Positions 616-42,953 of a DNA stretch of 43,359 bases are shown here, piece by piece. The stretch lies in NCBI GenBank assembly GCA_024277705.1, contig JAJRUQ010000186.1, positions 1-43,359 of the forward strand, given 5' to 3'. The position numbers and the translations under genes are program-made. The first letter of the stretch is position 1. Every line of letters starts with the position of its first letter. Origin of the DNA: Gammaproteobacteria bacterium (GTDB lineage: Bacteria > Pseudomonadota > Gammaproteobacteria > SZUA-229). The notes under the pieces were generated by a model. It was not told the origin of the DNA and did no database searches. It worked only from the letters and a program-made list of their open reading frames with translations.

Positions 616-904
616 AGATGTTAAAAAGACAGGTTTAACTAAAGCGTTTATTCTAGCATGAGATCAGGCGGTAGTTTATCAGGCAAGGCGTTATTTATTT
701 GCGATAAATTGTTTATTCAAACAAAAAATATTAATCGTTCAAGAGTTAAGTCAGCTTAACAAGCGTTAGAGCCGGTCTCTTCGATTTATTGTCGGTATTT
801 TTTACGATTTACTGGATAATAGTGAATATATTGCTCGAAAATCGATCAAAAACGCTAAAAGCTCATGCGATTCACTCATTTTGTGTAAAAAACGCCTTAA
901 ACGC

Positions 905-921
905 TGTCGGCAAATATTACA
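905..921 (+). promoter_or_regulatory. Candidate PrsR enhancer site
   Basis: TGTCGGCAAATATTACA matches 12 of 17 positions of the site upstream of the second PEP-CTERM gene (TGTCACAATACATTACA, minus strand 16011-15995) and 11 of 17 of the one upstream of the first. Its centre is about 110 bp before the expected start site of the promoter at 997-1012, a normal distance for an NtrC-type activator. The outer TGT/ACA is palindromic. Assignment to PrsR is inference. Confidence 0.4.
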
Positions 922-996
922 GTTTTGTCTGTTTTTTGGTGTGTATATATGAGGTGATTTTGAATTTATTAAAGGATAACAAGCATTTAAAATAAT

Positions 997-1012
997 TGGC
1001 ATGGATAGTGCT
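997..1012 (+). promoter_or_regulatory. Sigma-54-like (-24/-12) promoter
   Basis: TGGCAT-GGATA-GTGCT has the invariant GG and GC at the correct 12-bp offset. It differs from the consensus TGGCAC-N5-TTGCW at two positions. The expected start site is near 1023, leaving a leader of about 140 nt before the small membrane protein gene at 1162. Confidence 0.5.
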
Positions 1013-1161
1013 ATTAACAGTTACCACAAAAGTTTATTGAAGCATTAAAAGTGTGATGTAGTGCAGAGATTAATTTTTACGGGAGGGTAGAATTTACGAT
1101 TGTGATTTAGTCGTAGCTGAAATTTTATTTTTAATTTTATGGTTGACCGGAGGGGTCTGAT

Positions 1162-1278
1162 ATGGAACAAAATTCAAATAAAATTGAAAAACATGAGGAT
1201 ACGAAAAAGTTATCCATGGTTGTTTTATTTTTATCAATATTTGTTATTGCGCTGTTTAGTCTGGCGCCAATGGCTTAA
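1162..1278 (+). CDS. Small single-pass membrane protein (38 aa)
   Basis: The ATG at 1162 opens a 38-codon frame ending in TAA at 1276-1278. A GGAGGGG sequence (1149-1155) lies 6-9 bases upstream, one of the best ribosome binding sites in the window, which is the main argument that it is translated. The first 17 residues are hydrophilic and charged (MEQNSNKIEKHEDTKK). They are followed by one hydrophobic helix, VVLFLSIFVIALFSLAP, reaching almost to the C-terminus, so an N-in or tail-anchored inner-membrane topology is likely. It lies 157 bp before the XrtA-type ATPase, downstream of a sigma-54-like promoter, and is probably the first gene of that operon. I know no family for it. It could be a membrane partner of the ATPase or a small regulator, but this is speculation. 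Confidence 0.55.
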   Translation: MEQNSNKIEKHEDTKKLSMVVLFLSIFVIALFSLAPMA

Positions 1279-1435
1279 GAAAAAGCCGCATGGCAATAAA
1301 TATATTTATGGTAAAATTCGCTGCTGTTGGCAGTGAGGCAGTAGTCTCTATGGCATTTGTATATATGTTTGCCAAATGTTTTAACATATATAACTGGGGT
1401 TCGCTGTCTCGGGCATTGGCCGAGAGGTATAAACA

Positions 1436-2414: not shown

Positions 2415-3341
2415 GTGTCTGCGGTGAGCAAAAACATACTGTTTTTTCTGCTTATTGCGCTGATGTTTATGCCTGTGTCGGTCAGCAGCCTGTGGTGGTA
2501 CGAGGCACTTAATAGTGCGCATGCTCTCGTTTTTATCTATATTTCCATCTTTGTTTTTTCGCGGTTAAGCATTAGCCTGCCTGCGTTGCACCGGTATCGG
2601 TTGTATATAATAACAATTGTTAGCGGTTTGTTTATTGGCTTGTCAGTAGAGGTTCTGCAGTTTTTTGTTGGCAGGGAAATGAGTCTGCAGGATTGGTCTA
2701 AAGATTTTTTTGGCCTGTTGTCCGGTATTGCTCTGCTTGAATTCAGGCGGCAGATTAAAAGCTCATCCTTCAATAAGGCTGCAGCAATTTCGCTTCTGTT
2801 TGCTGCCGGTTTTTTATTCTTCGGGGTGCATTCGTTGTTGCAGTTAAGCTGGCATTATTATCAGCGAAACAATGCGTTTCCTGTGCTGCTTGAATTCGAC
2901 AAAAGCTGGTCTGACAGTTTTTTGTTTTTTAATAAAGCCGAAGTAACAGGCGGTGCTGCAGTTTTTCATGGCGGGGCGGATAAGTTTTACCGGATTGTAT
3001 TTGAATCTGGACGCTATCCCGGGTTCGGTCTTGTTGAGACTGCGGGCGACTGGTCAAATTACCGGTATTTATGTTTTTCGTTGTTTTCTTCACAGCATGA
3101 TGATGTGGATGTTGTGCTGAGAGTAAATGATTCGGCTCACAACCAGGAGTATACCGACCGTTACAATAAACGTATTTCTGTTCATTATGGTGTTAATAAA
3201 ATAAAAGTGGCGCTGATAGATATAAAGAATGCTGCAGAAAAACGAAATATAAATTTATCTGAAATTGCCGAGATGAAATTGTTTGCTGTTAATCTAGAAA
3301 AAGCAGTGGAATTTGAAATCAGTAACATTGAATTACAATAA
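2415..3341 (+). CDS. VanZ-like membrane protein with C-terminal extracytoplasmic domain
   Basis: A 308-residue protein with about five hydrophobic helices in its first 150 residues. These include the VanZ-family pattern of a membrane pair around LSVEVLQFFVGREMSLQDW, which resembles the conserved E-x-x-Q-x-F...D-x-x-N/D-x-x-G signature. After the last helix (about residues 118-136) comes a 160-residue soluble region rich in beta-type sequence (FDKSWSDSF, YRYLCFSLFSS, VVLRVNDSAHN). This resembles a carbohydrate-binding or CIA30-like sandwich and would face the periplasm. VanZ-like proteins occur often in XrtA loci, but their biochemical role is unknown. The start is uncertain: GTG at 2415 is used here, GTG at 2424 is an alternative, and no strong ribosome binding site is visible. 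Confidence 0.75.
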   Translation: MSAVSKNILFFLLIALMFMPVSVSSLWWYEALNSAHALVFIYISIFVFSRLSISLPALHRYRLYIITIVSGLFIGLSVEVLQFFVGREMSLQDWSKDFFGLLSGIALLEFRRQIKSSSFNKAAAISLLFAAGFLFFGVHSLLQLSWHYYQRNNAFPVLLEFDKSWSDSFLFFNKAEVTGGAAVFHGGADKFYRIVFESGRYPGFGLVETAGDWSNYRYLCFSLFSSQHDDVDVVLRVNDSAHNQEYTDRYNKRISVHYGVNKIKVALIDIKNAAEKRNINLSEIAEMKLFAVNLEKAVEFEISNIELQ

Positions 3342-3407: not shown

Positions 3408-3444
3408 AGCCGTAAACATAAAGTTTTACGGCTTTTTATTTTTT
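3408..3444 (+). terminator. Rho-independent terminator between VanZ-like and sugar transferase genes
   Basis: AGCCGTAAA (3408-3416) pairs perfectly with TTTACGGCT (3425-3433), followed by a T-rich run to 3444. It lies 67 bp after the VanZ-like stop and just ahead of the sugar transferase. The latter may therefore depend on readthrough or on its own weak promoter. Confidence 0.7.
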
Positions 3445-3466
3445 CGGGATATGTTTGTTTTCCACT

Positions 3467-4885
3467 ATGAGTACCGTTAGTTTTTTTCGACATTCAGCAA
3501 AGTTGTCACGATATTATATTCCTACTGAGTTTTTGTCTCTGGCGGTGATAGAGTTTCTGGTGCTGATACTGTCTTTGTATCTGTCTCTGGAAGTTCGATT
3601 CTGGATGGAAGACTGGCATCGGGATTTTGGTGAGTTTCTGCCAAAAGCTGTTTTATTTGCCGTGATAATGCAGTTCAGTCTGATTGCTTTTGGTGTATAC
3701 CAGCGCCAGAGTGGGCGTTTTATTAATATGCTGGTGCTGAGGATAGCCAGTGGTTTATTGCTGGGACTGATACCACTGGGCGTTGGCTTTTATTTTGTGC
3801 CGCTGTTTTTTATGGGGCGTGGTGTTCTTTTTCTGGCGGTTTTATTCAGTTTTCTGTTAATTTCAGTTGTTCGTCTGCTTTTCAGAAAAGTGGTTAAAGA
3901 GCGTGATATGTGGTCACGCATACTGGTGCTTGGTGCTGGCGAAAAAGCGGATTTAATTCGTGAGGCAATAAAAACGGGTGAGTTGTCGGGGTTAAATATT
4001 GTGACTTATGTGGCAACGGGCAGTGATAAAAATCACCCGAATGAGGATTCGCTGGTTTTGGACAAGCCATTGATTCGTTATGTTGAAGACCTGGATATTG
4101 ATGAGATTGTGATTGCTGTTGATGACCGTCGCTCTGGTGGCTTTCCTACAAAAGAGCTTATCGATTGTAAAATGAGCGGTGTCAATATTGTTGATCTGGT
4201 TACTTTTTTTGAGCGCCGGGCGGGAAAAATCAGGCTGGATATATTGAATCCCAGCTGGTTGTATCTATCTGAGGGCTTTCAGGCGGGTGCGCTCGGGCGA
4301 ATCGTCAAACGTATAGTTGATCTGCTTGTGGTTCTGGTTTTATTGCCGGTGGCGTTGCCGTTATCGGTACTGGTTAGCTTGGCAATATTTGTTGAAAGTG
4401 GCTTTCGTGGTGGTGTTTTATATCACCAGACGCGTGTTAAACAGGATGGTCAGCCCTTTGAGATATACAAATTTCGCAGTATGGTGATTAATGCTGAGGT
4501 TGACGGTGTAGCCCGTTGGGCTTCGAAGAATGACTCACGTATTACCCGGGTTGGCAGAATCATTCGTAAGGGACGTCTTGATGAATTACCGCAGTTATTT
4601 AATGTGCTGAAAGGTGATATGAGTTTTGTCGGGCCGCGACCTGAGCGACCTGAATTTGTTGGCAAGCTGGCAAAAGCGATTCCATATTATGATGAGCGCC
4701 ACCGGGTTAAGCCGGGTCTGACCGGTTGGGCGCAGGTGTGTTACTCCTACGGAGATACGGTCGAAGACAGCATTGAAAAATTACAATATGACCTGTATTA
4801 CGTAAAAAATTACAGTGTTCTGCTCGATTTGCTCATACTGTTACAGACTGCGGAAGTGGTTATGCTGGGCAAGGGTGCGCAATAA
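3467..4885 (+). CDS. Priming sugar-1-phosphate transferase (EpsB-like, polyprenyl glycosylphosphotransferase)
   Basis: An inner-membrane enzyme that starts repeat-unit synthesis by moving a sugar phosphate from a nucleotide sugar to undecaprenyl phosphate. The N-terminal half has four to five membrane helices, then a Rossmann-like CoA-binding domain (RILVLGAGEKADLI, about residues 140-155). After another helix comes the bacterial sugar transferase domain, with YKFRSM, RLDELPQLFNVLKGDMSFVG, GPRPERPEFV and KPGLTGWAQV. Length (472 residues) and architecture fit the XrtA-linked TIGR03013 group. The ATG at 3467 is preferred on codon grounds. A TTG at 3455, six bases after GGGA, would add four residues. 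The donor sugar cannot be read from the sequence. Confidence 0.92.
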   Translation: MSTVSFFRHSAKLSRYYIPTEFLSLAVIEFLVLILSLYLSLEVRFWMEDWHRDFGEFLPKAVLFAVIMQFSLIAFGVYQRQSGRFINMLVLRIASGLLLGLIPLGVGFYFVPLFFMGRGVLFLAVLFSFLLISVVRLLFRKVVKERDMWSRILVLGAGEKADLIREAIKTGELSGLNIVTYVATGSDKNHPNEDSLVLDKPLIRYVEDLDIDEIVIAVDDRRSGGFPTKELIDCKMSGVNIVDLVTFFERRAGKIRLDILNPSWLYLSEGFQAGALGRIVKRIVDLLVVLVLLPVALPLSVLVSLAIFVESGFRGGVLYHQTRVKQDGQPFEIYKFRSMVINAEVDGVARWASKNDSRITRVGRIIRKGRLDELPQLFNVLKGDMSFVGPRPERPEFVGKLAKAIPYYDERHRVKPGLTGWAQVCYSYGDTVEDSIEKLQYDLYYVKNYSVLLDLLILLQTAEVVMLGKGAQ

Positions 4886-5638: not shown

Positions 5639-6427
5639 TCAGGCTTTTTTGCGTCTGCTGATACCTATGCCAACCAGGCCAAGAGCAAGAAGACCAAGCA
5701 TGGCAGGTTCGGGGACGCTATACTGACCTTCGATAACATCATTGGCGCAGGTCATGCCCCAGCTCAAAGCAATGGTGCTGCTTCCGGCCAGTGCGGTGCC
5801 GGTTAAATCGATTTCGAAGTTAACTTTGTTGGCAGTGGTATCCCAGGTGCCACTACCAACACTGGTAACATCACCGGAACCGGTGTTAACCGCAATTTCC
5901 TGGCCATTACGGTAACTACCTGTGCCGCTGGAAAGGAAGTCATCGGATAAATAGGTATCGATTAGATTGTTGCCTGAATTCAGGCTGTACAATGTACCAT
6001 TATTGGTTTGATTTTCTACGGCCCAGCGGTCATCCAGAGAAAAGCCATACGTCCATGTGGTGCCATTACTGGCATCGTCATTGGCATAGGGTGCTGTACC
6101 ATAAGGATTCCAGCTGCTGCTTAAGAACAGGTCGCCGTAGCCAATGCCTTTGCTGCCGCTTAGTGGGGTGTTCGTATATGAGGCAAACAAACCGTCATCA
6201 CCTTTGCCACCAAAAGTGGTGTCAATGCTGACGGATAAAATATTGCCGCTGATGGAAACATCCATATAGTTGATCTGGAAGTTATTTACGTTACCTACAA
6301 CGTCGCCGTATGAGCCGCCATCAGCGCCTACATAGTTGTCATTAATAATAACGGCTGAAGCTGTTTGTGCAAAGCAGATGCCTGCAATGGCAGCGGCTAA
6401 GTATAGTTTTCTTGAGTGTAATTTCAT
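5639..6427 (-). CDS. PEP-CTERM sorting-signal protein (262 aa)
   Basis: A secreted XrtA substrate. The N-terminus has a Sec signal peptide (basic MKLHSRKLY, hydrophobic core, cleavage near AQTASA). The middle is a Gly/Ser/Asn-rich extracellular domain resembling other PEP-CTERM beta-rich proteins (for example GDLFLSSSWNPYG). The C-terminus is a textbook PEP-CTERM signal: VPEPAMLG, a hydrophobic helix, then RRKKA. XrtA is expected to cleave near the PEP motif. AGGAG (spaced 8) precedes the ATG at 6427. A sigma-54-like promoter lies 40-55 bp upstream, so expression is probably under PrsK/PrsR control. Two cysteines at most are present and no enzymatic motif is seen. The likely role is matrix or surface-layer component, by family analogy. 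Confidence 0.92.
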   Translation of the reverse strand: MKLHSRKLYLAAAIAGICFAQTASAVIINDNYVGADGGSYGDVVGNVNNFQINYMDVSISGNILSVSIDTTFGGKGDDGLFASYTNTPLSGSKGIGYGDLFLSSSWNPYGTAPYANDDASNGTTWTYGFSLDDRWAVENQTNNGTLYSLNSGNNLIDTYLSDDFLSSGTGSYRNGQEIAVNTGSGDVTSVGSGTWDTTANKVNFEIDLTGTALAGSSTIALSWGMTCANDVIEGQYSVPEPAMLGLLALGLVGIGISRRKKA

Positions 6428-6466: not shown

Positions 6467-6482
6467 TACAAGTAATGTGCCA
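6467..6482 (-). promoter_or_regulatory. Sigma-54-like promoter of PEP-CTERM gene 1
   Basis: The minus strand reads TGGCAC-ATTAC-TTGTA. The -24 half is perfect and the spacing correct; the -12 half has TTGT instead of TTGC. The expected start site is near 6456, about 28 nt before the ATG at 6427. Confidence 0.65.
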
Positions 6483-6576: not shown

Positions 6577-6593
6577 TGTAAATTATTCTGACT
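6577..6593 (-). promoter_or_regulatory. Candidate PrsR enhancer site upstream of PEP-CTERM gene 1
   Basis: On the minus strand this reads AGTCAGAATAATTTACA, identical at 13 of 17 positions to the site upstream of PEP-CTERM gene 2. It is centred about 130 bp before the expected start site, in the same orientation relative to transcription as the other two sites. Confidence 0.45.
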
Positions 6594-6881
6594 TTATAAT
6601 GCTTTGTTTTGTCCGTAACATGGTGAGCGATGATAACGGCCAGGCAAACTTAGAACAAGAATAAGTTGTTTGATATATAAACAATGACTTATAAGTGTTT
6701 TCATGGAATTCAGCTGCTTTATCTAAAATGTATTTGTAATATTTTATGACAGTTGTTACCGTCTGTTTAAATGATGGTTGAAGTTTTAGTGGCTTGTTAT
6801 CTGGCGATGAAAGTATCGGGTAAAAATTAATGAAAATGTCATTTACATGTTAAAAGGGTTTAAAACGACAGGATGCCGTCG

Positions 6882-8960
6882 ATGAATTTGGGCTTTTATG
6901 GTTATACGGCGGCAACTATCGCCTATGGTTTTTTTGCTGTTTTGCTGTTGTTCAGCTGGCGTGAAAGTCTGCAGGGAAAGCTGCTGTTCATTACCATTGC
7001 TGTTAGCGCGGTCTGGTCAATTATTGCGGTACAAATTTCACTTCATGATGAATCGTATTTGCTGCTATACCAGGTATTTGAAATTATTCGCTATATCGCC
7101 TGGTATGTTTTTTTACTGAAACTGTTTGATGTTGCTTTACCTGACGTAAAGCAAAGCCGTAGTTTTCAACGGTTCTCGCGTAATGCACTGTTTTTAAGTG
7201 TGGGCCTGGCCAGTTTGTTTTTAATCAATGAACTGCTGGCAAAGGTATTTTCTTTGCCGGGCCAGTTTGTATTGGGGATAACCGGCAATGTTTTATTAGC
7301 ATTGGCTGGCCTGGCAATCATCGAGCAATTGTATCGTAATACCTCCGCCCGCTTTCGCTGGGCGACCAAATATCTGTTTTTAGGCGTTGGCGGCATCTTT
7401 GCCTTTGATTTTTATTTGTATTCAGACGCCTTGCTGTTTCGCAATATTGACCAGAGTTTGTGGGATGCACGTGGCATCGTGCATTTTGTTGCCGTACCTC
7501 TACTGGTTATTTCCTCTGCCCGAAATAAAAACTGGTCATTGAATGTTTTTGTTTCCAGGGAGATTGTTTTAAATACAACGGCTATTTTTGCCGGTGGCTT
7601 GTATTTGCTGGCGATGGCCGGTGCCGGTTATTACATCCGTGAGTTCGGCGGTAGCTGGGGTCAGTTTGGCCAGGTCATGTTTATTTCTCTAGCGGTGGTG
7701 TTTTTATTTGTATTGGTCTCATCAGTAAGATTGCGGGCGCAGATAAAAGTCTTTCTCGGCAAGCATTTTTATAAGAACAAATACGATTACCGGCTTGAAT
7801 GGCTACGTTTGACGGAAGATCTGGTGGAGAGTGGCGATGCCAACAGCCATTATCGTACCGCCATTGAAGCGATGGCAGATATTGTTGATGCGCGTGCCGG
7901 TTCGCTCTGGTTGTGTGATGACAAGCAGCAGTATCGAAATATCGGGGTCTGGCATAGCAGGCATTATGAAGAAGTTTTAGCGGCGGATGAGTCGCTCATA
8001 CTTTTTCTTTCGAAAAAGGGATTTGTTATTAATTTACATGAGATGGAAAGTCACGTGGAGGAGTATGAAGGTTTAAGCCTGCCACAGTGGCTAACGGAAA
8101 TGGAGCACCCCTGGCTGATTGTGCCGTTACAGGGCGCCGATAAACTGCTTGGTTTTGTGGTGCTGGCAAACCCGTTATTGCTACGCACGATTAACTGGGA
8201 GGATCGTGATCTGTTAAAAACAGCGGCAAAACAGATATCCAGTTATTTAATGGTGTGGATGACCTCGGCGCAACTTGCGGAATCCAAGCAGTTTGAGGTG
8301 TTTACCCGACTTTCAGCTTATATGGTTCATGATTTGAAAAATATAGCTGCAGAGTTAAACCTGGTCGCTTTAAACGCTAAAAAATTCAGTAGCAACCCGG
8401 AATTTGTGATGGATGCTTTTGAAACGGTTGAACATGCGGCCGGTGATATTAATCGTTTACTGGAGCAGTTACGGAACAAAAGAGCACTGGGTGAAAAGAG
8501 GGTCGACGTCAATTTAAGCGAAATTATTCAACAGGTTATTGCAGCAAAACAACAGAGCCTGCCTGTGCCGCAGTATGAGTCAGGGTTAAGCGCAGCGATT
8601 GTCTCACTTGATAAATCGCGTTTAAGTAATGTGCTGGCGCATTTAATTGATAATGCACAGCAGGCAACCGATGATACAGGTGAAATTATTATAAGCCTGT
8701 CTGAAAGTGCCGGTTTTTACCTGATTGAAATAAAAGACAGTGGTCACGGTATGGATGAGGGTTTCATCCGTCATCGTTTGTTTAAAGCCTTTGATACCAC
8801 CAAGGGTAATGCAGGCATGGGTATCGGCATGTATGAAAGCCGTGAATTTATGCGCCAGCTGGGTGGTGATATTTTAGTGCTAAGTAAAGTTGGAAAAGGG
8901 TCTATAATTACATTACACATTCCATTGAATAAATCTGTCGATGAAAGTGGTGATAAATAA
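6882..8960 (+). CDS. prsK: PEP-CTERM system histidine kinase PrsK
   Basis: A membrane sensor kinase of about 692 residues. The N-terminal third contains roughly eight to ten hydrophobic helices with short loops (a 7TM-like sensor region). It is followed by a GAF-type domain (about residues 310-460; VDARAGSLWLCDD...PLQGADKLLGFVVLANP). The kinase core has an unusual H-box, MVHDLKN, with His483 as the phosphorylation site. The ATPase domain has an N-box (HLIDNAQQATDD), a G1 motif (DSGHGMDE) and a G2 motif (TTKGNAGMGIGM). This layout matches TIGR02916 kinases. ATG 6882 is preferred because AGG at 6870-6872 is 9 bases upstream of it but directly abuts the alternative ATG at 6873. It is 29 bp ahead of prsR. 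The signal it senses is unknown. Confidence 0.93.
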   Translation: MNLGFYGYTAATIAYGFFAVLLLFSWRESLQGKLLFITIAVSAVWSIIAVQISLHDESYLLLYQVFEIIRYIAWYVFLLKLFDVALPDVKQSRSFQRFSRNALFLSVGLASLFLINELLAKVFSLPGQFVLGITGNVLLALAGLAIIEQLYRNTSARFRWATKYLFLGVGGIFAFDFYLYSDALLFRNIDQSLWDARGIVHFVAVPLLVISSARNKNWSLNVFVSREIVLNTTAIFAGGLYLLAMAGAGYYIREFGGSWGQFGQVMFISLAVVFLFVLVSSVRLRAQIKVFLGKHFYKNKYDYRLEWLRLTEDLVESGDANSHYRTAIEAMADIVDARAGSLWLCDDKQQYRNIGVWHSRHYEEVLAADESLILFLSKKGFVINLHEMESHVEEYEGLSLPQWLTEMEHPWLIVPLQGADKLLGFVVLANPLLLRTINWEDRDLLKTAAKQISSYLMVWMTSAQLAESKQFEVFTRLSAYMVHDLKNIAAELNLVALNAKKFSSNPEFVMDAFETVEHAAGDINRLLEQLRNKRALGEKRVDVNLSEIIQQVIAAKQQSLPVPQYESGLSAAIVSLDKSRLSNVLAHLIDNAQQATDDTGEIIISLSESAGFYLIEIKDSGHGMDEGFIRHRLFKAFDTTKGNAGMGIGMYESREFMRQLGGDILVLSKVGKGSIITLHIPLNKSVDESGDK

Positions 8961-8989: not shown

Positions 8990-10372
8990 ATGAATAAGCT
9001 TATGGTTGATCATACATTAAAGCCACTGCTGGTTATAGAGGACAATCCGGGAATTCAAAAACAGCTTAAATGGTCATTCGATGGCTATCAGGTGCTGCTT
9101 GCCGGAGACAGAGTTAGCGCACTTGAGCAGCTGAAAAAAAACAAAGCACCGGTGGTAACACTGGATCTTGGTTTGCCGCCGGATCCGGCAAATGCCAGCG
9201 AAGGTTTTGCCGCCTTGCAGGATATTTTAAAACTGGCACCGCACACCAAAGTTATTGTGGTGACCGGTAACGATGATCGTGAAAGTGCGCTGCGGGCTAT
9301 ATCACTGGGCGCTTATGATTTTTACCAGAAACCGATAGAACCCGAGGTGCTGTCTTTGATTGTGGATCGCGCCTATCAGCTGTATGAAATAGAGGAAGAG
9401 AACAGGCAGCTGGTCGCGAATGGCAATAACTCAGTGCTGGATGGGGTTATCGGTGCCAGCCAGCAGATACTGGCGGTGTGCCGGCTGGTTGAAAGAGTGG
9501 GGCCATCGGAAGCTACCTCTCTGGTATTAGGTGAAAGTGGTACCGGTAAGGAGTTAATTGCACGCGCATTACATAATTTAAGTCCAAGAAAAAAGAAACC
9601 TTTCGTGGCTTTAAACTGTGCCGCAATACCCGATAATCTGCTTGAGAGTGAGCTCTTTGGCTATGAAAAAGGGGCTTTTACCGGCGCGGTCAGCCAGACC
9701 AAGGGTAAAATTGAGACCGCCAGTGGCGGTACGCTTTTTCTTGATGAGATTGGTGATATGCCGATGCCGTTGCAGGCAAAAATGTTGCGCTTCCTGCAGG
9801 AAAGAGTGGTTGAGCGTCTTGGTGGACGAAGTTCAATCGAGGTGGACGTTCGTATTGTCTGTGCCACGCACCGCAAACTGGACCAGTTAATTCAGACCGG
9901 TGAATTTCGTGAAGATCTGTTTTACCGAATCAGTGAAATTGTTATTGATATCCCTGCGTTACGCGAGCGTGAGGGGGATGCCATACTGCTGGCACAAACT
10001 TTTCTGGACAGCTTCAGTGAAAAGAATGGCCGCAATTTTCGAGGGTTTAGCGAGTCTGCACGGATTAAACTGGATTCTTATGACTGGCCGGGCAATGTAC
10101 GTGAGCTGGAGAACCGGATTAAACGTGCGGTTGTGCTGGCTGACGGTAATCGCATAACACCCGTAGATATGGGTTTCGATGAAAATATGGAGTCAATGCA
10201 GCTGCTTGATTTGCGTGAGGCAAGAGAGCAGGTCGAACGGGACGTTATCCAGCGGGCGCTGGCCATCTATGACAACAATGTAACGCATGCAGCCGAAGCC
10301 ATGGGTATCAGCCGTCCTTCATTGTATCAACTGGTCAAAAAACTGGGTCTGCCGGATCCGGGTAAAGCATGA
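8990..10372 (+). CDS. prsR: PEP-CTERM system sigma-54-dependent response regulator PrsR
   Basis: A 460-residue NtrC-family activator. The receiver domain (about 12-130) has acidic pair E17-D18, phospho-acceptor D59 in TLDLGLPP, and the conserved K-P of YQKPIEPE. The central AAA+ domain has Walker A GESGTGKE at 181-188 and an intact GAFTGA loop at 228-233, which contacts RNA polymerase-sigma-54. It also carries the GGTLFLDEIGDMP Walker B segment and the later WPGNVRELEN. The C-terminus is a Fis-type helix-turn-helix (HAAEAMGISRPSLYQLVKKL). AAGGA precedes the ATG by 6 bases. It should be phosphorylated by PrsK and activate -24/-12 promoters. Candidates occur in front of both PEP-CTERM genes and of the miniprotein-ATPase operon. 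Confidence 0.95.
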   Translation: MNKLMVDHTLKPLLVIEDNPGIQKQLKWSFDGYQVLLAGDRVSALEQLKKNKAPVVTLDLGLPPDPANASEGFAALQDILKLAPHTKVIVVTGNDDRESALRAISLGAYDFYQKPIEPEVLSLIVDRAYQLYEIEEENRQLVANGNNSVLDGVIGASQQILAVCRLVERVGPSEATSLVLGESGTGKELIARALHNLSPRKKKPFVALNCAAIPDNLLESELFGYEKGAFTGAVSQTKGKIETASGGTLFLDEIGDMPMPLQAKMLRFLQERVVERLGGRSSIEVDVRIVCATHRKLDQLIQTGEFREDLFYRISEIVIDIPALREREGDAILLAQTFLDSFSEKNGRNFRGFSESARIKLDSYDWPGNVRELENRIKRAVVLADGNRITPVDMGFDENMESMQLLDLREAREQVERDVIQRALAIYDNNVTHAAEAMGISRPSLYQLVKKLGLPDPGKA

Positions 10373-15253: not shown

Positions 15254-15820
15254 TTAAGCAGACTTACGAGCTCTGCGAGCAAAACCAAAACCTAATAAAC
15301 CAGTGCCAAGCAACAGTGCAATGGCAGGCTCAGGAACACTTTCGCTTGAGAAGCTGGCGCCACTTTGGCTAAAGCCCCATTTACCGTATGTTTTCTCGCC
15401 ATCTATATCTGTAAAGTAGCCGGTACCAGACAGTGTCAGTAAAGAGAAGCCAGATGAGTCACCACTTACAATAGCTACACTGGTTAGGGTAAAGCTGTAA
15501 TCAATCGTGCTGTCATTGCCTACGTCAATAGACCAGATGGTTTTTTCCGGGATATCAGTGTACAGAAAGCTTGTTAAAGCCAATTGGCCACCACCGTTGC
15601 CCGCGGTGTCGATGCCGCCAAGACCGGCGAAATCACCTGTTGGTGCAGGGAAACTATTGACAGAACCGCCAGTAAAGGTGATACCGGTTGAGTTAATACC
15701 ATCATTTTCAACTATGCTTGAACCGCCAATATTGATAGTGCCAATAAGAGGAGAAGCTGAAGCAACACTGGTTAAGGCGCATAAAGCAGTGGTAAGTAGT
15801 AATTTTTTAAGGTTGTTCAT
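15254..15820 (-). CDS. PEP-CTERM sorting-signal protein (188 aa)
   Basis: A second XrtA substrate. The start at 15820 (MNNLKKLLLTTALCALTSVA) gives a canonical signal peptide with cleavage near ASA and has AAGGAAC upstream. The frame could extend to 15883, but that would bury the signal peptide behind a basic leader. The mature part is small, Gly/Ser/Thr-rich and lacks cysteine, resembling a beta-rich secreted matrix protein. The C-terminus is VPEPAIALLLG, a helix, then RRARKSA, a clear PEP-CTERM signal. The nearly perfect sigma-54 promoter about 97-112 bp upstream of the start makes it the best candidate in the window for strong PrsR control. It shares no obvious domain with the first PEP-CTERM protein apart from the signals. 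Confidence 0.93.
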   Translation of the reverse strand: MNNLKKLLLTTALCALTSVASASPLIGTINIGGSSIVENDGINSTGITFTGGSVNSFPAPTGDFAGLGGIDTAGNGGGQLALTSFLYTDIPEKTIWSIDVGNDSTIDYSFTLTSVAIVSGDSSGFSLLTLSGTGYFTDIDGEKTYGKWGFSQSGASFSSESVPEPAIALLLGTGLLGFGFARRARKSA

Positions 15821-15916
15821 GGTTGTGTTCCTTGATTTGTTAAATAATCGTTTAGTCAATTTGTATTTCAGTTTTTCTTTCATTTTTTTATCAATGAAGG
15901 GTCTTGACTGTGATAA

Positions 15917-15932
15917 TGCAATCCGTGTGCCA
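15917..15932 (-). promoter_or_regulatory. Sigma-54 promoter of PEP-CTERM gene 2 (perfect consensus)
   Basis: The minus strand reads TGGCAC-ACGGA-TTGCA, an exact match to TGGCAC-N5-TTGCW. The predicted start site is near 15905, giving a leader of about 85 nt to the ATG at 15820. Confidence 0.88.
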
Positions 15933-15994: not shown

Positions 15995-16011
15995 TGTAAT
16001 GTATTGTGACA
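15995..16011 (-). promoter_or_regulatory. Candidate PrsR enhancer site upstream of PEP-CTERM gene 2
   Basis: The minus strand reads TGTCACAATACATTACA. It shares 13/17 positions with the site at 6577-6593 and 12/17 with that at 905-921, and is centred about 98 bp before the expected start site. Confidence 0.45.
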
Positions 16012-16297
16012 GTTAAAAGATGGTTGCTGTTGTAATTATGACAAAAATTTCATGTTTTGAAAGTGAAATCTATATAAATCAACGCTTTACAGGCTCATTG
16101 TGAGTGTAAAAAAAAGCGACGGACAAAGTTGTGTGCTGTTATTGTTGTATTCTGTGACCGTGATAACAGTGTTTTATGGTAGAGATGAACTATAATTCAA
16201 CACAAATTATGTATGTTTAGTGTCATGTTAAGTTAAGTCTCAATGTGTTCTTTGTGCTTGCCTTTGATAGTGTACTTTTACTCGGATTTAAATTTTA

Positions 16298-18790: not shown

Positions 18791-19645
18791 ATGGCTATTC
18801 AGAATGCCTTAACCGTTGATGTTGAAGATTATTTTCAGGTATCAGCTTTTGCTAAAAGCATAAAACAAAATTACTGGGACAATCATCCGTCACGGGTCGA
18901 AAAAAACACCCGGCGGTTGATGGATATGTTCGATGAAGCACAGGTGAAAGCAACATTTTTTGTTTTAGGCTGGGTTGCGGATAGAAATAGAAGGCTCATT
19001 GAAGACATCGCGCAACGCGGACATGAAGTTGCCAGCCATGGTTACAGCCATCAGCTGATTTACAATCAAACCCCCGAAGTCTTTCGTGAAGAAACGATTC
19101 GCTCAAAACGGCTGCTTGAAGACATTGTGCAAATGCCGGTCAGAGGTTACCGGGCCGCCAGTTATTCAATAACAAAAAAATCTTTGTGGGCGTTGGATAT
19201 ACTGGCGGAGGCCGGTTTTGAATACGATTCGAGTATTTTCCCGGTGCGGCATGACCGTTATGGTATTGCTGATGCGATAGAAGTACCGCATTTGCTGAAA
19301 ACGCCGCAGGGACATTCGCTGGTTGAGTTTCCACTGTCGACGGCCAAACTACTTAATTATAAGCTGCCAATAGCTGGCGGTGGGTATTTTCGCCTGTATC
19401 CCTATGCCTTAAGTCGAGCCGGGCTTGCGCAGGTTAACCGCAGGGCGCAGCCATTTATTTTTTATCTGCATCCCTGGGAGATTGATCCTGAGCAGCCCAG
19501 AATAGAAGCCGGGCTCTTTTCACGTTTCCGTCATTATAATAATCTTTCACGTTGCGAAGAGCGTTTGCAGCAGTTGTTAAATGATTTTGAGTTTACCACT
19601 GCGGCAAAGGTGCTGGCGGGGCTGGATTTACTGGATGCTGCTTGA
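18791..19645 (+). CDS. XrtA-system polysaccharide deacetylase (NodB-like, CE4)
   Basis: A 284-residue carbohydrate esterase family 4 protein. The metal and catalytic motifs are LTVDVEDYF (residues 7-15, the DVED variant of TFDDG) and ASHGYSHQ (the H-x3-H metal site). Later motifs are GYRAASYSI and PFIFYLHPWEID. It has no signal peptide, so it may act on the cytoplasmic or lipid-linked glycan. Length and motif variants fit the TIGR03006 group, always found with XrtA exopolysaccharide genes. It is the third gene of the operon and overlaps the next gene by one base (TGATG). It would remove N-acetyl groups from hexosamine in the repeat unit; the substrate is inferred. Confidence 0.93.
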   Translation: MAIQNALTVDVEDYFQVSAFAKSIKQNYWDNHPSRVEKNTRRLMDMFDEAQVKATFFVLGWVADRNRRLIEDIAQRGHEVASHGYSHQLIYNQTPEVFREETIRSKRLLEDIVQMPVRGYRAASYSITKKSLWALDILAEAGFEYDSSIFPVRHDRYGIADAIEVPHLLKTPQGHSLVEFPLSTAKLLNYKLPIAGGGYFRLYPYALSRAGLAQVNRRAQPFIFYLHPWEIDPEQPRIEAGLFSRFRHYNNLSRCEERLQQLLNDFEFTTAAKVLAGLDLLDAA

Positions 19646-21612
19646 TGAGTTATTACATTGAGCTGACCACCGTTGAAGATCTGGAGCCGTTGCAGGCAGA
19701 CTGGACCACGCTTGAAGCGTGTACAGATTGTTCCTATTTTCAGTCCTGGGGCTGGATTGGTACCTGGTTAAAAGAAGTGGTATCCGATATGCAGCCACAG
19801 GTAATCCGTGTCTGGGAACGTGAAGAACTGGTAGCTATCGGTATTCTTGTCAATACTTCGGTTACACGCCGCGGCATCCTGTCATCAAGAAAGCTGTTTC
19901 TCAATGAGGCACCGGTGGCCAACCGTAATATGGTCATTGAATACAATGGTTTGCTGCTAAAAAGAGGGCATGAGGAAGGTGTGTACAAGGCGGCGATCTA
20001 CTACCTGCGTTATGCCGATGCCAATTGGGACGAGCTTTGTCTGGGACTGTTGCGCAAATCAATAACGGATACCTTTATCAACGAACTGCATAATGAATTT
20101 TATATGACTATCGAGAAGCAGGTCTCATCATGGCAGTTTGATAGTAATCATATTGAGCAAGGCATGGCTGGGATCATCGGTAGCCTGAGCAGAAACCGGC
20201 GTTATCAAATTAATAAAGCTTTAAAGTTGTACCGGGAAGATGGTGAGCTGGTACTGACAGAGGCAAATACAGCAGAACAGGCACTGGAATATTTTGATGG
20301 TTTAAAACAACTGCACACGATTCGCTGGCAAGCTAAAGGTAAAACCGGTTCTTTTGTTAATGGTCTATGGGAAAAATTTCATTGCCAGTTGATTAAAACA
20401 AGATTTTCGGCAGGCGAAATCCAGCTGATTAAAATTGAAACGCCGAAAAGAAAAATCGGTTATGTTTACAGCTTTTTGTGGCGTCATCGTGTTTATGTAT
20501 TGCAAACCGGTTTTAATATAGATCTGCCTAAAACTGGTCAGCCCGGCTATATTTCACATATCATGGGCATTCAGCATAACCAGAAAAAAGGTTATAAGAT
20601 TTATGATCTTCTGTCGGAAGATTCCGGTTATAAGAAAATTCTTTGCAACCGTTCAGAGGAGCTGGTTACTGTTTCATTTCAGCGTATCTCAGTTAAATCC
20701 ATGCTGCACCAGGTGTCTTTTTCTGCGATAAAGAGCGGATATATCAGCACGGTCGTTAAAAATTCAATTGCCGACAAAATCAATGTATACGGTACCGGTG
20801 CCGTGGATATGCTGCGTGAAAAATGGATACACCTGGTTAAGAAATGGCCCTCACAGGATAAAAAGTTTTTGCTTGTAGGCTCTGAAAGTTCCGGAACAAC
20901 CGCGGTGTCAGATTTGTTGTTTAAAGAGGTAAATAACCTGCGTTATCTTGAAGAGGGGGAGCAGCAATGGGTCTGGGATGCTTACAGGAGTATCTATCAA
21001 AAACAAAAGAAGGTCAGGGATTACCCGCGTCTGCAGCTGTTTGATGCTATCAAGGTGCCGGGATTTTCTATGATTATCAATGAGTTTCTGGAAGAATTTC
21101 CCAATACGACTATCGTTTATCTGGTGCGAGATCCGCGGGATTTTGCCAGTTCAGCAATAAAAACCTGGAAGATAGGGCATATGAAAGATTTTCATAAAGT
21201 ACCCTGGACGAAAATTGAATGGTTGGGTATTGGCTGCCGGCAACCGGTCGAGTGTCTTGCACTTAGATGGAAAGCCTATATTAATGCAGCGAAAAAAATA
21301 GATAATATTGTTTTTGTAAAGTATGAAGATTTTTGCCGGGATAAAGTTGGCGTAATAGAAGGTATTTGTAAAAAACTTGATTTACCCTTTGACAGGAGCC
21401 GTGTATCACAATTGTGTGATACCCAACTTAGTCATGCCAGCGTGCGGGCTTATCGCCCAAGTGGTCCCGGCGGCTGGCGTAACAGCATCCTTGAAGAAAA
21501 GCATATTAAGTCGATAGAAAAAATATGTGATAAAGAAATGAAAGATTGGGGATATGAGTTTTCTCAGACCAGTGATTTTCTGACGATAAAAGACGAGGTG
21601 CCTGGTGGTTAA
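19645..21612 (+). CDS. FemAB/BioF2-like acyltransferase fused to sulfotransferase
   Basis: A two-domain protein of 655 residues. Residues 1-400 are a GNAT/FemAB-like module of the 'CelD/BioF2' type: SYFQSWGWIGTWLKE near the N-terminus, the conserved RRYQINKALKLYREDG about residue 190, and GYKIYDLLSEDSGYKKI about 315-330. From about residue 405 a PAPS-dependent sulfotransferase begins. Its 5'-phosphosulfate loop is LLVGSESSGTTAVSDLL and its 3'-phosphate motif is VYLVRDPRDFASS. The tail GPGGWRNSI resembles the cofactor-binding RxGxxGxWK-type loop. The start at ATG 19645 overlaps the previous stop (TGATG), so translation is coupled. A TTG one codon earlier is less likely. The fusion suggests that one polypeptide both acylates and sulfates the glycan. 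I know of no described protein with this pairing. Confidence 0.85.
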   Translation: MSYYIELTTVEDLEPLQADWTTLEACTDCSYFQSWGWIGTWLKEVVSDMQPQVIRVWEREELVAIGILVNTSVTRRGILSSRKLFLNEAPVANRNMVIEYNGLLLKRGHEEGVYKAAIYYLRYADANWDELCLGLLRKSITDTFINELHNEFYMTIEKQVSSWQFDSNHIEQGMAGIIGSLSRNRRYQINKALKLYREDGELVLTEANTAEQALEYFDGLKQLHTIRWQAKGKTGSFVNGLWEKFHCQLIKTRFSAGEIQLIKIETPKRKIGYVYSFLWRHRVYVLQTGFNIDLPKTGQPGYISHIMGIQHNQKKGYKIYDLLSEDSGYKKILCNRSEELVTVSFQRISVKSMLHQVSFSAIKSGYISTVVKNSIADKINVYGTGAVDMLREKWIHLVKKWPSQDKKFLLVGSESSGTTAVSDLLFKEVNNLRYLEEGEQQWVWDAYRSIYQKQKKVRDYPRLQLFDAIKVPGFSMIINEFLEEFPNTTIVYLVRDPRDFASSAIKTWKIGHMKDFHKVPWTKIEWLGIGCRQPVECLALRWKAYINAAKKIDNIVFVKYEDFCRDKVGVIEGICKKLDLPFDRSRVSQLCDTQLSHASVRAYRPSGPGGWRNSILEEKHIKSIEKICDKEMKDWGYEFSQTSDFLTIKDEVPGG

Positions 21613-22441
21613 TATTATTGACCGATATCGAGAGGTGGAAAAATATTTTGTTTTAAACAAAATACGTGGTAAATCCTATGTGATTTCATTTTTCTGTGTT
21701 TCTGGGTTTTTACTCAATCGTCTTCTTGGCGTCAATAGTAATGTGTTAAATACGGGCAGTGTGCTTGAAGGGTTTCAGTTGTACACGCGACCACTGTTAA
21801 TATCATATTCAAGAAGTGGAACGAACTGGGTTCGTTATATTATTGAATATCTTTCGCAGCAGCCTACGCCGGGTTATGTGCGCTCAAAAAGCGGGGTAAA
21901 TTTTGTTATTGACCGGGCGCATGCCGGCTATAAAAATATACATAATTATAACAAAGTGATGTTGGTGATAAGGAATTATAAAGAATGTCTGGTGCGCCAT
22001 GACAGCATTGAATTCGTCAACAGCTTTGCAACAATTTCTGATTATCTTGAATCAGACCGGCGCTTGCAGCAGCCACGGTGGTACATAGAAAATATTAAAG
22101 CGTTTGATGATTTCGAAGGTAAAAAGATGCTCCTTTATTATGAGGATTTGCTCACCGATTCGGTAACCTGTGCGAAAAAGATAGCTAACTTTCTCGGGCT
22201 TGATAATGAGCGTCTGGCAGGCTTGATCGATAATATTGATGAGCATAAAAAACGATCCGTTGAACTCTATAAAAATGATCATGACAGCGTTACGTGTGGC
22301 GACGTAAACAAGCTTGATTACCATTCTAAACATGGACTGTCGGAAGAAGCTCGACAGGCATTTGATCAATACTATCGGGAAAATTATCCCCGACTGTTTA
22401 CAAAGTATCTGGCGCGATATCAGGAAGAGTTACCGGTTTGA
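21605..22441 (+). CDS. Sulfotransferase family protein (278 aa)
   Basis: A PAPS-dependent sulfotransferase. The 5'-phosphosulfate binding loop is LLISYSRSGTNWVRYII (about residues 64-80). The 3'-phosphate motif is VMLVIRNYKECLVRH (about 118-132), followed by MLLYYEDLL. It has no signal peptide, although residues 24-42 are fairly hydrophobic. It starts with GTG at 21605, eight bases inside the end of the preceding fusion gene, with GAGG six bases upstream, so the two sulfotransferases are translationally coupled. Likely role: sulfation of the exopolysaccharide repeat unit. It is the last gene of the plus-strand operon, and a terminator overlaps its stop codon. Confidence 0.88.
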   Translation: MVNIIDRYREVEKYFVLNKIRGKSYVISFFCVSGFLLNRLLGVNSNVLNTGSVLEGFQLYTRPLLISYSRSGTNWVRYIIEYLSQQPTPGYVRSKSGVNFVIDRAHAGYKNIHNYNKVMLVIRNYKECLVRHDSIEFVNSFATISDYLESDRRLQQPRWYIENIKAFDDFEGKKMLLYYEDLLTDSVTCAKKIANFLGLDNERLAGLIDNIDEHKKRSVELYKNDHDSVTCGDVNKLDYHSKHGLSEEARQAFDQYYRENYPRLFTKYLARYQEELPV

Positions 22442-32300: not shown

Positions 32301-33572
32301 ATGAAAATATTATGGCTTTCACATCTGGTTCCCTATCCGCCTAAAGGAGGTATTCTGCAACGAGCATATCACCTGCTTCATGAAGTTTCTAAAAGCCATG
32401 ATGTTGATTTACTCGCTTTTAATCAGCCGAATTTGATACGCCCCTTATTCTCAGGCATCGATGAAGGACTGCGGGAAGCAGCAGAAGTTTTATCAACATT
32501 CTGTCATAGAGTTGAGTTTGTTCAAATTGAATCGGATCAACAGAGATTCGGGCAATATCGTCTGGCTCTCAAAAGCCTGCTGACCAGCGATCCCTACAAT
32601 ATTAACTGGTTAAAGTCGTCTGAGTATGCAGCAAAACTGCAGATGATGCTGTTGACCGGGAATTATGACCTGGTGCATCTTGATACCATAAGTCTGCAAC
32701 CTTACTTTAAGTATGTCAGCCACCTGCCGACGGTACTGGATCATCACAATATTGAATCACACATGCTGCTGCGCCGTGCGCAAAAGGAGGGTAGTTTATT
32801 CAAGAAGTGGTATTTTCGACAGGAAGGCCTGCGTTTGGTGCGATATGAAAAATCCCTGTGTCCACAGGTCGCCTATAACATTACCTGCTCAGAAACAGAC
32901 CGGCAACGACTGCTGGCAATTGTGCCGGAATGTCGGGTTGAGGCCATTGCTAATGGCGTTGATATTGATTATTTTAAAAGAGATGGTAGCGTCAAACAGC
33001 AGAGCAGCCTTATTTTTATCGGTACACTCGACTGGTATCCGAATGTCGAAGCGGTCAGATTTATTGCTGATGAAATATGGCCGTTATTGAAACAAAAAGT
33101 GCCAGGTGTTTAGATCAATATTATAGGGGCGAATCCACCGCAGGATATTGTTGAATTAAGCCGGCAGGATGCAGATTTCAATGTTCATGGTTTTGTTGAC
33201 GACATTCTGCCCTACTTAAACAGGGCCGCTGTTTATGTTTGTCCTATTATGGATGGTGGTGGTACCAAGTTAAAAATTCTTGATGCACTGGCAATGGAAA
33301 AAGCGATTGTTGCACATGAAATCGCCTGTGAAGGGATTAATGTGAGCGATGGTGTGGATGTTATTTTTGCTGAGACGGCCGAAGCTTATGTTTCTGCAAT
33401 TTCTGGGCTTATTGCTGATCAGGACTTGCGAAACAAAATGGGGCTGGCGGCAAGAAAATTAATCGTCGATCACTATGCCTATGAGGAAATAGGTAGAAAG
33501 TTAGCCCGCTTGTACAAAAAGAGCCAGTCGTTGCTGTTGCACAATTCGGCAATTAATCAGGATCATTGCTAG
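32301..33572 (+). pseudogene. GT4 sugar transferase (XrtA-associated) interrupted by one in-frame TAG
   Basis: The frame starts MKILWLSHLVPYPPKGGILQ, typical of TIGR03087-type sugar transferases of XrtA loci, and runs 270 codons to TAG at 33111-33113. The identical frame continues from codon 272 with no further stop to TAG at 33570-33572. It encodes INIIGANPPQDI, FNVHGFVDDILPYLNRAAVY and MDGGGTKLKILDALAMEKAI, the missing half of the donor domain. The two parts join at exactly the right place (VPGV-x-INIIGANPP), so only one codon is wrong. Without readthrough, the truncated product lacks the nucleotide-sugar site and would be inactive. The rest shows no decay. Either this is a recent mutation, a sequencing error or suppression. 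The final TAG overlaps the GTG of the next gene. Confidence 0.8.
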
Positions 33573-42023: not shown

Positions 42024-42953
42024 GTGTCATTGCCAATCTGTGTTTTGATACAGGTTGTTTGCAAGCATTTTATTCTGGATGATGGTTTGATTATTTCAAA
42101 AAAACATACTTTGTTGCCGGCGTTTGTCAGGTTTCCGGTGCGTATGCTTGCGCATGGTTTCTGGCGAATAAGGTTTGTTATTGACCGCCTGCGATCACGA
42201 TATTATAAACAGATAGTCATATGCGGTTATCCAAGAGGAGGGACCTCCCTGTTATATAATATGGTCAGTGCCTCGCTACCAGGGTTTTATTTCGATGAAT
42301 TTGAGTCCAGGGCTGCGGAACGGATACATCGTTATGGAAACTATGCGACCAAGGCACCGACCGATATTTTTGAACTGAATAAACTGCCGGCCTTGAATAT
42401 ATATAAAAAAGAAATATTTGTACTGGTCGTGGTACGTGATATCCGCGATGTGATTACTTCAAAACATCCGAATATTCCTGATGAGTTTTTTATCGGTTAT
42501 GACCACAGCTGGTGGCCGCGTAAAGACAGCCATGCTGCGTGGCAATATGACGGTAGTGGTGTACTGGAAATTCATGCAGCTATTGAACAAAGTGCCGCTA
42601 TCGAAGGTATAACGGTGATTAAAGTAAGCTATGAAGAAATGATCAATGATCCTGACGGCTTACAGAAAAAGCTGGAAAAAAACATGGGTATTAATTTTGA
42701 TTATCCAATCAGGGATTTTCATCGTAACAAAGCAAAACTTGCCTATAAATATGATGATTATCAGCAACGTAAAAGTTCACTGGTGTTTGAAGACAAGCCG
42801 ATAACCGGTAGTCGGGCAGGCAAATGGCGCAAGCCGGAATTCAGGGCAAGAATACAGCAGCAGTTCGGCTCTTGTCCATCGCTGTTTGAGATATTGATTA
42901 AAGATGGTTATGAAACTGAGCGGTCGTGGTTTGATGGCTATAAACAGGACTAG
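42024..42953 (+). CDS. Sulfotransferase family protein (309 aa)
   Basis: A PAPS-dependent sulfotransferase. The 5'-phosphosulfate loop is IVICGYPRGGTSLLYNMV (about residues 64-81) and the 3'-phosphate motif VLVVVRDIRDVITSKHP. VIKVSYEEMINDPDGL and SRAGKWRKPE follow, the latter fitting the family's C-terminal cofactor loop. The first 60 residues are basic and hydrophobic and may contact the membrane. The start is GTG at 42024 and is uncertain, without an obvious ribosome binding site. The stop is TAG. Twenty-eight in-frame sense codons follow it and lead straight into the membrane protein at 43038. Confidence 0.87.
   Translation: MSLPICVLIQVVCKHFILDDGLIISKKHTLLPAFVRFPVRMLAHGFWRIRFVIDRLRSRYYKQIVICGYPRGGTSLLYNMVSASLPGFYFDEFESRAAERIHRYGNYATKAPTDIFELNKLPALNIYKKEIFVLVVVRDIRDVITSKHPNIPDEFFIGYDHSWWPRKDSHAAWQYDGSGVLEIHAAIEQSAAIEGITVIKVSYEEMINDPDGLQKKLEKNMGINFDYPIRDFHRNKAKLAYKYDDYQQRKSSLVFEDKPITGSRAGKWRKPEFRARIQQQFGSCPSLFEILIKDGYETERSWFDGYKQD

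Follow-up and report, generated by a model that had tools for sequence, protein, structure and literature searches.

Small membrane proteins such as CydH/YnhF of E. coli are regulated by FNR, and the canonical place of ATPases of the TIGR03015 type is among chain-length and deacetylase genes. In the assembly of type II secretion systems, the ATPase domain of ExeA (GspA) works together with ExeB (GspB), an inner-membrane partner with a single transmembrane (TM) segment (PMC4098917). For PEP-CTERM genes, Haft et al. (PMC1569441) described a motif of 17 nt that ends in TTTACA and in some cases occurs more than once; a spacer of 32-92 nt and then a sigma-54 site follow it; according to this description, the motif pair is tied to PrsR by phylogenetic profile, and a few further sites are located upstream of other genes. 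The dependence of one PEP-CTERM gene on RpoN was shown in Aquincola (PMC9850573).

The window analyzed here, by which we mean the whole stretch of 43,359 nt, is an XrtA/PEP-CTERM locus with genes for EpsB_2, PEP-CTERM, PrsK, PrsR, XrtA, PrsT, PEP-CTERM, a chain-length determinant, a tyrosine kinase, a deacetylase, FemAB, and glycosyltransferases (Table 1). Near its beginning, a short frame, named smA in this work, precedes an ATPase gene. The locus resembles the PrsK-PrsR-sigma-54 regulon, as described in PMC1569441, in that a box ending in TTACA, often repeated, lies 62-96 nt before a -24 (GG)/-12 (GC) site. In addition, PrsK and PrsR are encoded 5.6-9 kb downstream of the smA promoter, and two PEP-CTERM genes of the window show the identical arrangement. 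It differs in what is controlled, namely a 38-aa membrane protein together with an ATPase instead of a PEP-CTERM protein. Motif 1 of PMC1569441 entered this comparison through its published description and not through its logo. The ATPase matches TIGR03015 over the full length and belongs to an XrtA locus, but it scores below the cut-off, adjoins EpsB2-PrsK, and has smA upstream. ExeA carries a TM segment of its own and a peptidoglycan-binding domain, while ExeB (approximately 25 kDa) has a large periplasmic domain, of which smA has almost none; homology between smA and ExeB was not found (no PDB match and no significant Pfam match). CydH/YnhF is similar to the smA family in size, in the single TM segment, and, as regards a group of orphan homologues of smA, in the apparent control of the FNR type. 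The smA family has neither a PDB profile match nor a Pfam match above the gathering cut-off.

Table 1. Positions of the features discussed in the text, numbered from the first nucleotide of the window.
Feature	Position	Strand	Basis or remark
Distal PrsR-type box TGTCGGTATTTTTTACGA	790..807	+	one mismatch to GTCR-N7-TTACA
Proximal PrsR-type box TGTCGGCAAATATTACAG	905..922	+	ends TATTACA; 75 nt upstream of -24 element
Sigma-54 -24/-12 promoter of smA, TGGCATGGATAGTGCT	997..1012	+	GG-N10-GC spacing
Shine-Dalgarno GGAGGGG of smA	1149..1155	+	6-nt spacer to ATG
smA (name used here), 38-aa single-TM miniprotein	1162..1278	+	frame, conservation, pN/pS, hydropathy, AF2
TCTCGGGCATTG-CCGGGAG element, ATPase translation start	1406..1426	+	conserved in genus
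Soluble AAA_22/TIGR03015-like ATPase, 292 aa	1436..2314	+	profile, hydropathy, model
VanZ-domain protein, final gene of apparent operon	2415..3341	+	profile match
Intrinsic-terminator-like hairpin and T-run after VanZ gene	3408..3433	+	terminator search
EpsB_2 XrtA-system glycosyltransferase	3455..4885	+	profile; within conserved neighbourhood
Sigma-54-like promoter (one mismatch) of PEP-CTERM gene 5639-6427	6467..6482	-	boxes 6577-6592, 6735-6750 (-)
PrsK histidine kinase	6873..8960	+	profile
PrsR sigma-54-dependent response regulator, presumed activator of smA promoter	8990..10372	+	profile
Sigma-54 promoter of PEP-CTERM gene 15254-15883	15917..15932	-	boxes 15995-16010, 16105-16120 (-)

The smA frame starts with an ATG at 1162 and comprises 38 codons, with a TAA ending at 1278. 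Its translation, MEQNSNKIEKHEDTKKLSMVVLFLSIFVIALFSLAPMA, reaches a Kyte-Doolittle peak of 2.74 at residues 17-35, and the TM segment spans approximately residues 17-36, with K15-K16 before the membrane helix. The AF2 model is a single helix from residue 4 to residue 34 (mean pLDDT of 79.7). The frame is as described in the original prediction, which had pointed out a charged N-terminus, the strong GGAGGGG site and one C-terminal membrane helix. Judged by the positive-inside rule, the N-terminus would be cytoplasmic. Since the minimum length in common gene callers is 90 nt and the frame measures 117 nt, smA would be easily overlooked rather than strictly under the limit. The NCBIfam search gave no match to the small protein, the PDB profile search gave none to its family, and no Pfam match of the family exceeded the gathering cut-off, the best matches of single members being weak (e.g., SecE, E 0.0043). 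Rfam returned no element at the smA site; its matches elsewhere in the window were a tRNA at 542-615 and weak ones under the threshold. Among the open-licence papers searched, none was found that reports such a protein.

Relatives of the ATPase with at least 59% identity were present in 20 genomes, all from one bacterial family and this genome included. For 16 of them, sufficient sequence before the ATPase was available, on the contig itself or, in the case of G006, on a second one. All 16 informative loci had a homologous short frame upstream of the ATPase, separated from it by 136-285 nt. Within the genus, the core codons of smA gave a pN of 0.129 and a pS of 0.635, i.e., a ratio of 0.20, compared to 0.84 and 2.94 for the other two frames, both of which also contain stops; this difference demonstrates in-frame selection on the protein. 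The claim of an overlooked real gene heading the ATPase operon is supported, and neither of the two observations that had been named as refuting it, the lack of a conserved short frame in relatives and equal rates of synonymous and non-synonymous change, was made. At 117 nt, and with no NCBIfam match and none above the Pfam gathering cut-off, the frame could have been taken for a chance open reading frame, but its conservation, the codon evidence, its constant pairing with the ATPase, and the existence of homologues rule this out. It is nearly certain that smA is a genuine gene. Its product is a predicted single-pass inner-membrane miniprotein, and smA heads an apparent operon in which the ATPase and VanZ genes follow.

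The distribution of smA is narrow. Across 370 genomes of the class, full-length matches to the family were restricted to the same bacterial family and to G230, and the order-level search yielded the identical 54 genomes as the family-level one. Among 397 genomes across the phylum, the sole other match at E <= 0.001 covered 18 positions with a stop in frame. Weak matches at the class level (L097-L099) and at the phylum level (L111) spanned just 18-23 profile positions and were set aside, L098 and L099 being judged as chance upon inspection. Consequently, smA is confined to one family of uncultured gammaproteobacteria and almost absent from approximately 750 other genomes. Those relatives that have a name are gammaproteobacteria assembled from metagenomes. 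G230 is listed under another family, and its smA-ATPase locus (L095, G230:C79) is very similar; this locus is probably a misbinned contig. The expectation that smA would precede TIGR03015-type ATPases elsewhere found no support, as no family member was found before the more distant ones from other families (loci L023-L028).

With regards to the control of the operon, TGGCAYRNNNNNYGCW is matched exactly at just two places of the 43-kb window, namely at the smA promoter and before a PEP-CTERM gene. When the 250 nt upstream of the short frame were scored for sigma-54 sites, the best score exceeded all 100 shuffles per locus at 15 of 16 loci, and the sigma-54-like promoter of the original prediction is therefore real. 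A search for shared spaced words upstream of the smA loci returned GTCG-N7-TTACA. In the form GTCR-N7-TTACA, this box ends 73-96 nt upstream of TGGCA at 13 of 15 smA promoters, and the spacing of the proximal box is 73-75 nt in nearly all congeners. Several smA promoters carry a second copy approximately 190-210 nt upstream of TGGCA. If the two PEP-CTERM promoters are counted as well, 15 of 17 sigma-54 promoters have a box no more than 130 nt away from the -24 element, while shuffled sequences averaged 0.02 and never exceeded 1. The window itself holds six exact matches to the box, five of which precede its three sigma-54 promoters. Three loci are exceptions: L020 (G025) has three boxes without a recognized -24/-12 site, and at L015 and L086 the -24/-12 site is present and the exact box absent. 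Because the -24/-12 site and the boxes match the motif pair as described in PMC1569441, the smA-ATPase operon can be assigned to the PrsR regulon on sequence evidence. Control of smA by PrsR and sigma-54 is very probable, and we infer that PrsR itself would bind at the boxes.

The second gene of the operon encodes an ATPase without a TM segment according to its hydropathy (maximum KD19 of 1.36). Its AAA+ model is confident (pLDDT 87.2), and the best structural matches of the model are ORC/Cdc6, RuvB, TnsC, and MuB, the latter also being the only sequence match in the PDB; relatives of the ATPase were not found in viral contigs. The TIGR03015 match extends over positions 1-269 of 269 (E 2.1e-76), but its 256.9 bits are less than the curated cut-off of 324.5, and none of the genomes in this bacterial family has a match above this cut-off. 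The earlier designation as an XrtA-type ATPase is hence a loose one. No terminator-like site was found in the interval between smA and the ATPase gene.

The location of smA at the head of the operon, with 136-285 nt up to the ATPase gene, would also suit a leader peptide or regulatory upstream open reading frame whose translation controls the ATPase. So would the TCTCGGGCATTG-CCGGGAG element, which is conserved where translation of the ATPase starts and for which a role in translational control is possible. However, no Rfam leader was matched at smA, and selection purifies the amino-acid sequence itself. Furthermore, the product forms a hydrophobic helix, shows a conserved motif, and has homologues that head no operon. 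All this makes a leader function improbable.

The order smA-ATPase-(VanZ)-EpsB2-(PEP-CTERM)-PrsK-PrsR is repeated in those relatives whose contigs are long enough, with the exception of G025, where EpsB2 and PrsK were not seen in the 5-6 kb read past the ATPase. Across the 20 genomes bearing the smA-ATPase pair, PrsR was found in 16, the remaining four being 75-86% complete, whereas an exosortase A-type match was found in 10. G005, G011, and G025, all of which are at least 98% complete, keep the pair with no XrtA detected. This comparison ties the pair more firmly to PrsR than to XrtA. The suggestion that smA might be a general component of XrtA systems cannot be maintained, given these three genomes and the confinement of the family member to one bacterial family.

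Some further observations on the locus and its genome are worth recording. The smA genome encodes a second PrsR (G000:C117:2763-4097) and a second exosortase, below the cut-off (G000:C81:5041-5817). Proteins with sulfotransferase domains are encoded in or near the XrtA locus (19642-22441 and 42024-42953), one of them fused to a GNAT-type acetyltransferase domain, and their presence suggests that the polysaccharide is sulfated. The TIGR03087 glycosyltransferase gene at 32301-33572 is seemingly split into the frames 32301-33113 and 33249-33572, by a frameshift, decay, or an assembly error.

The profile of the small protein also recovered further copies within the same bacterial family, which establish that smA belongs to a real, previously unnamed, lineage-restricted family of small proteins. 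These orphan homologues are solitary, each has a promoter of its own, their contexts vary, and they show no ATPase partner. With starts set by hand from the frame and the Shine-Dalgarno sequence, most of them measure 31-38 aa, and three are longer. One orphan is located in the smA genome itself (G000:C119:31605-31709, L002:1495-1602, minus strand, MSKKMPLEEETKKLTYTVIYMSMFVIVLFSVASLV) behind a strong Shine-Dalgarno sequence. Both groups share a core of [KR][KR]L and, after it, a TM helix with V and LFGL positions; in the orphans, this helix typically ends in LFGLxP. The pN/pS of the orphan group (0.33) is a rough value because L069 was anchored on the wrong KKL, which leaves the ATPase-linked value unaffected. 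In a tree of 25 columns, most ATPase-linked copies cluster, with weak resolution, and an alignment this short puts the date of recruitment out of reach.

The sigma-54 arrangement of the ATPase-linked group was not present upstream of the orphans. Instead, TTGAY-N4-RTCAA, matched at 10/10 or 9/10 positions, starts at -94 to -97 relative to the start codon in 11 of 27 orphans, with more nearby. The mean best score of this FNR-like box was 8.37 out of 10, compared to at most 7.56 among 200 sets of shuffles, while the box was not found in the ATPase-linked group, whose mean best score of 7.38 was within its shuffle range. Where a TACAAT-like hexamer is clear, the box lies approximately 36 nt upstream of it, which fits a class II site of the FNR/CRP type; the copy on G000:C119 has only a degenerate box, TTGACAATAAGCTG, and its sister copies in related genomes have the box at about -95. 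Judging from these boxes, the orphans appear to be controlled by a regulator that responds to oxygen or NO, perhaps FNR, ANR, or DNR. Two orphans, L075 and L076, have an additional hydrophilic C-terminal tail of approximately 30 residues and no FNR-like box at -95. As a group, the orphan 5' leaders before the Shine-Dalgarno sequence (e.g., L077, L063, and L062) had a mean MFE of -6.6, compared to -3.2 for shuffles, and RNAalifold on a MAFFT alignment of these leaders gave no common structure.

Considering that the orphans have no ATPase neighbor and are regulated differently, anchoring or binding an ATPase cannot be the whole or the common function of the family. It is conceivable that smA, although controlled by PrsR, acts on another membrane component, such as the exosortase, the polysaccharide export complex, a respiratory or stress complex, or the bilayer, with the ATPase merely on the shared transcript and the family function being a general one. 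The varied contexts of the orphans, their own promoters without an ATPase, the core motif with its V and LFGL positions common to both groups, and the FNR-like boxes, which many orphans carry at -95 +/- 2 and which the ATPase-linked group lacks, all agree with this explanation. However, the ATPase-linked copy was present at 16/16 informative loci, and most of these copies cluster, if weakly, in the tree, which fits a specific setting. We regard an action on another component as nearly as likely as a partnership with the ATPase. Small hydrophobic toxins resembling type I toxins (TisB/Ldr-like) were considered as well, as a multi-copy and lineage-restricted family, since its members have mostly 27-40 residues and one TM segment, with several copies in some genomes. 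With the apparent co-transcription with the ATPase under PrsR/sigma-54, the strong Shine-Dalgarno sequence, and the fixed activator boxes, a toxin family is very improbable.

A role of smA as a membrane partner of the ATPase, either as an anchor or as a regulator, is plausible, and the following course of events would be in line with it. PrsK would signal to PrsR, which would bind the distal and the proximal box and activate sigma-54 RNA polymerase at the smA promoter, so that smA and the ATPase would be made alongside the PEP-CTERM proteins during exopolysaccharide production. At the inner membrane, the charged, cytoplasmic N-terminal part of smA might then, as a less certain step, hold or regulate the soluble AAA+ ATPase. 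In this role, smA would correspond, in a minimal form, to the single-TM protein with which ATPases of the ExeA type work, and it seems that one member of the family was recruited into the PrsR regulon. The 136-285 nt that separate smA from the ATPase gene count against a tight translational coupling of the two. For this entire chain, including smA as the partner of the ATPase, we estimate a probability of about 0.4. A wider proposal is doubtful, according to which smA is the founding member of a new family of tiny membrane subunits and acts in a PrsR-controlled envelope program by recruiting or gating an ExeA-like AAA+ ATPase at the inner membrane, with sister proteins fulfilling a similar task for another machine under oxygen- or NO-responsive control.

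For the biology of these bacteria, the PrsK/PrsR-sigma-54 regulon would gain a gene that is absent from the searched family libraries, and the ATPase of the XrtA locus gains a candidate partner that can be tested. The example also illustrates that a short frame unnamed by profile libraries can be validated by the conservation of its promoter and enhancer in combination with codon evidence. Lastly, it defines a lineage-specific family of miniproteins, the members of which are apparently under two unrelated regulators.
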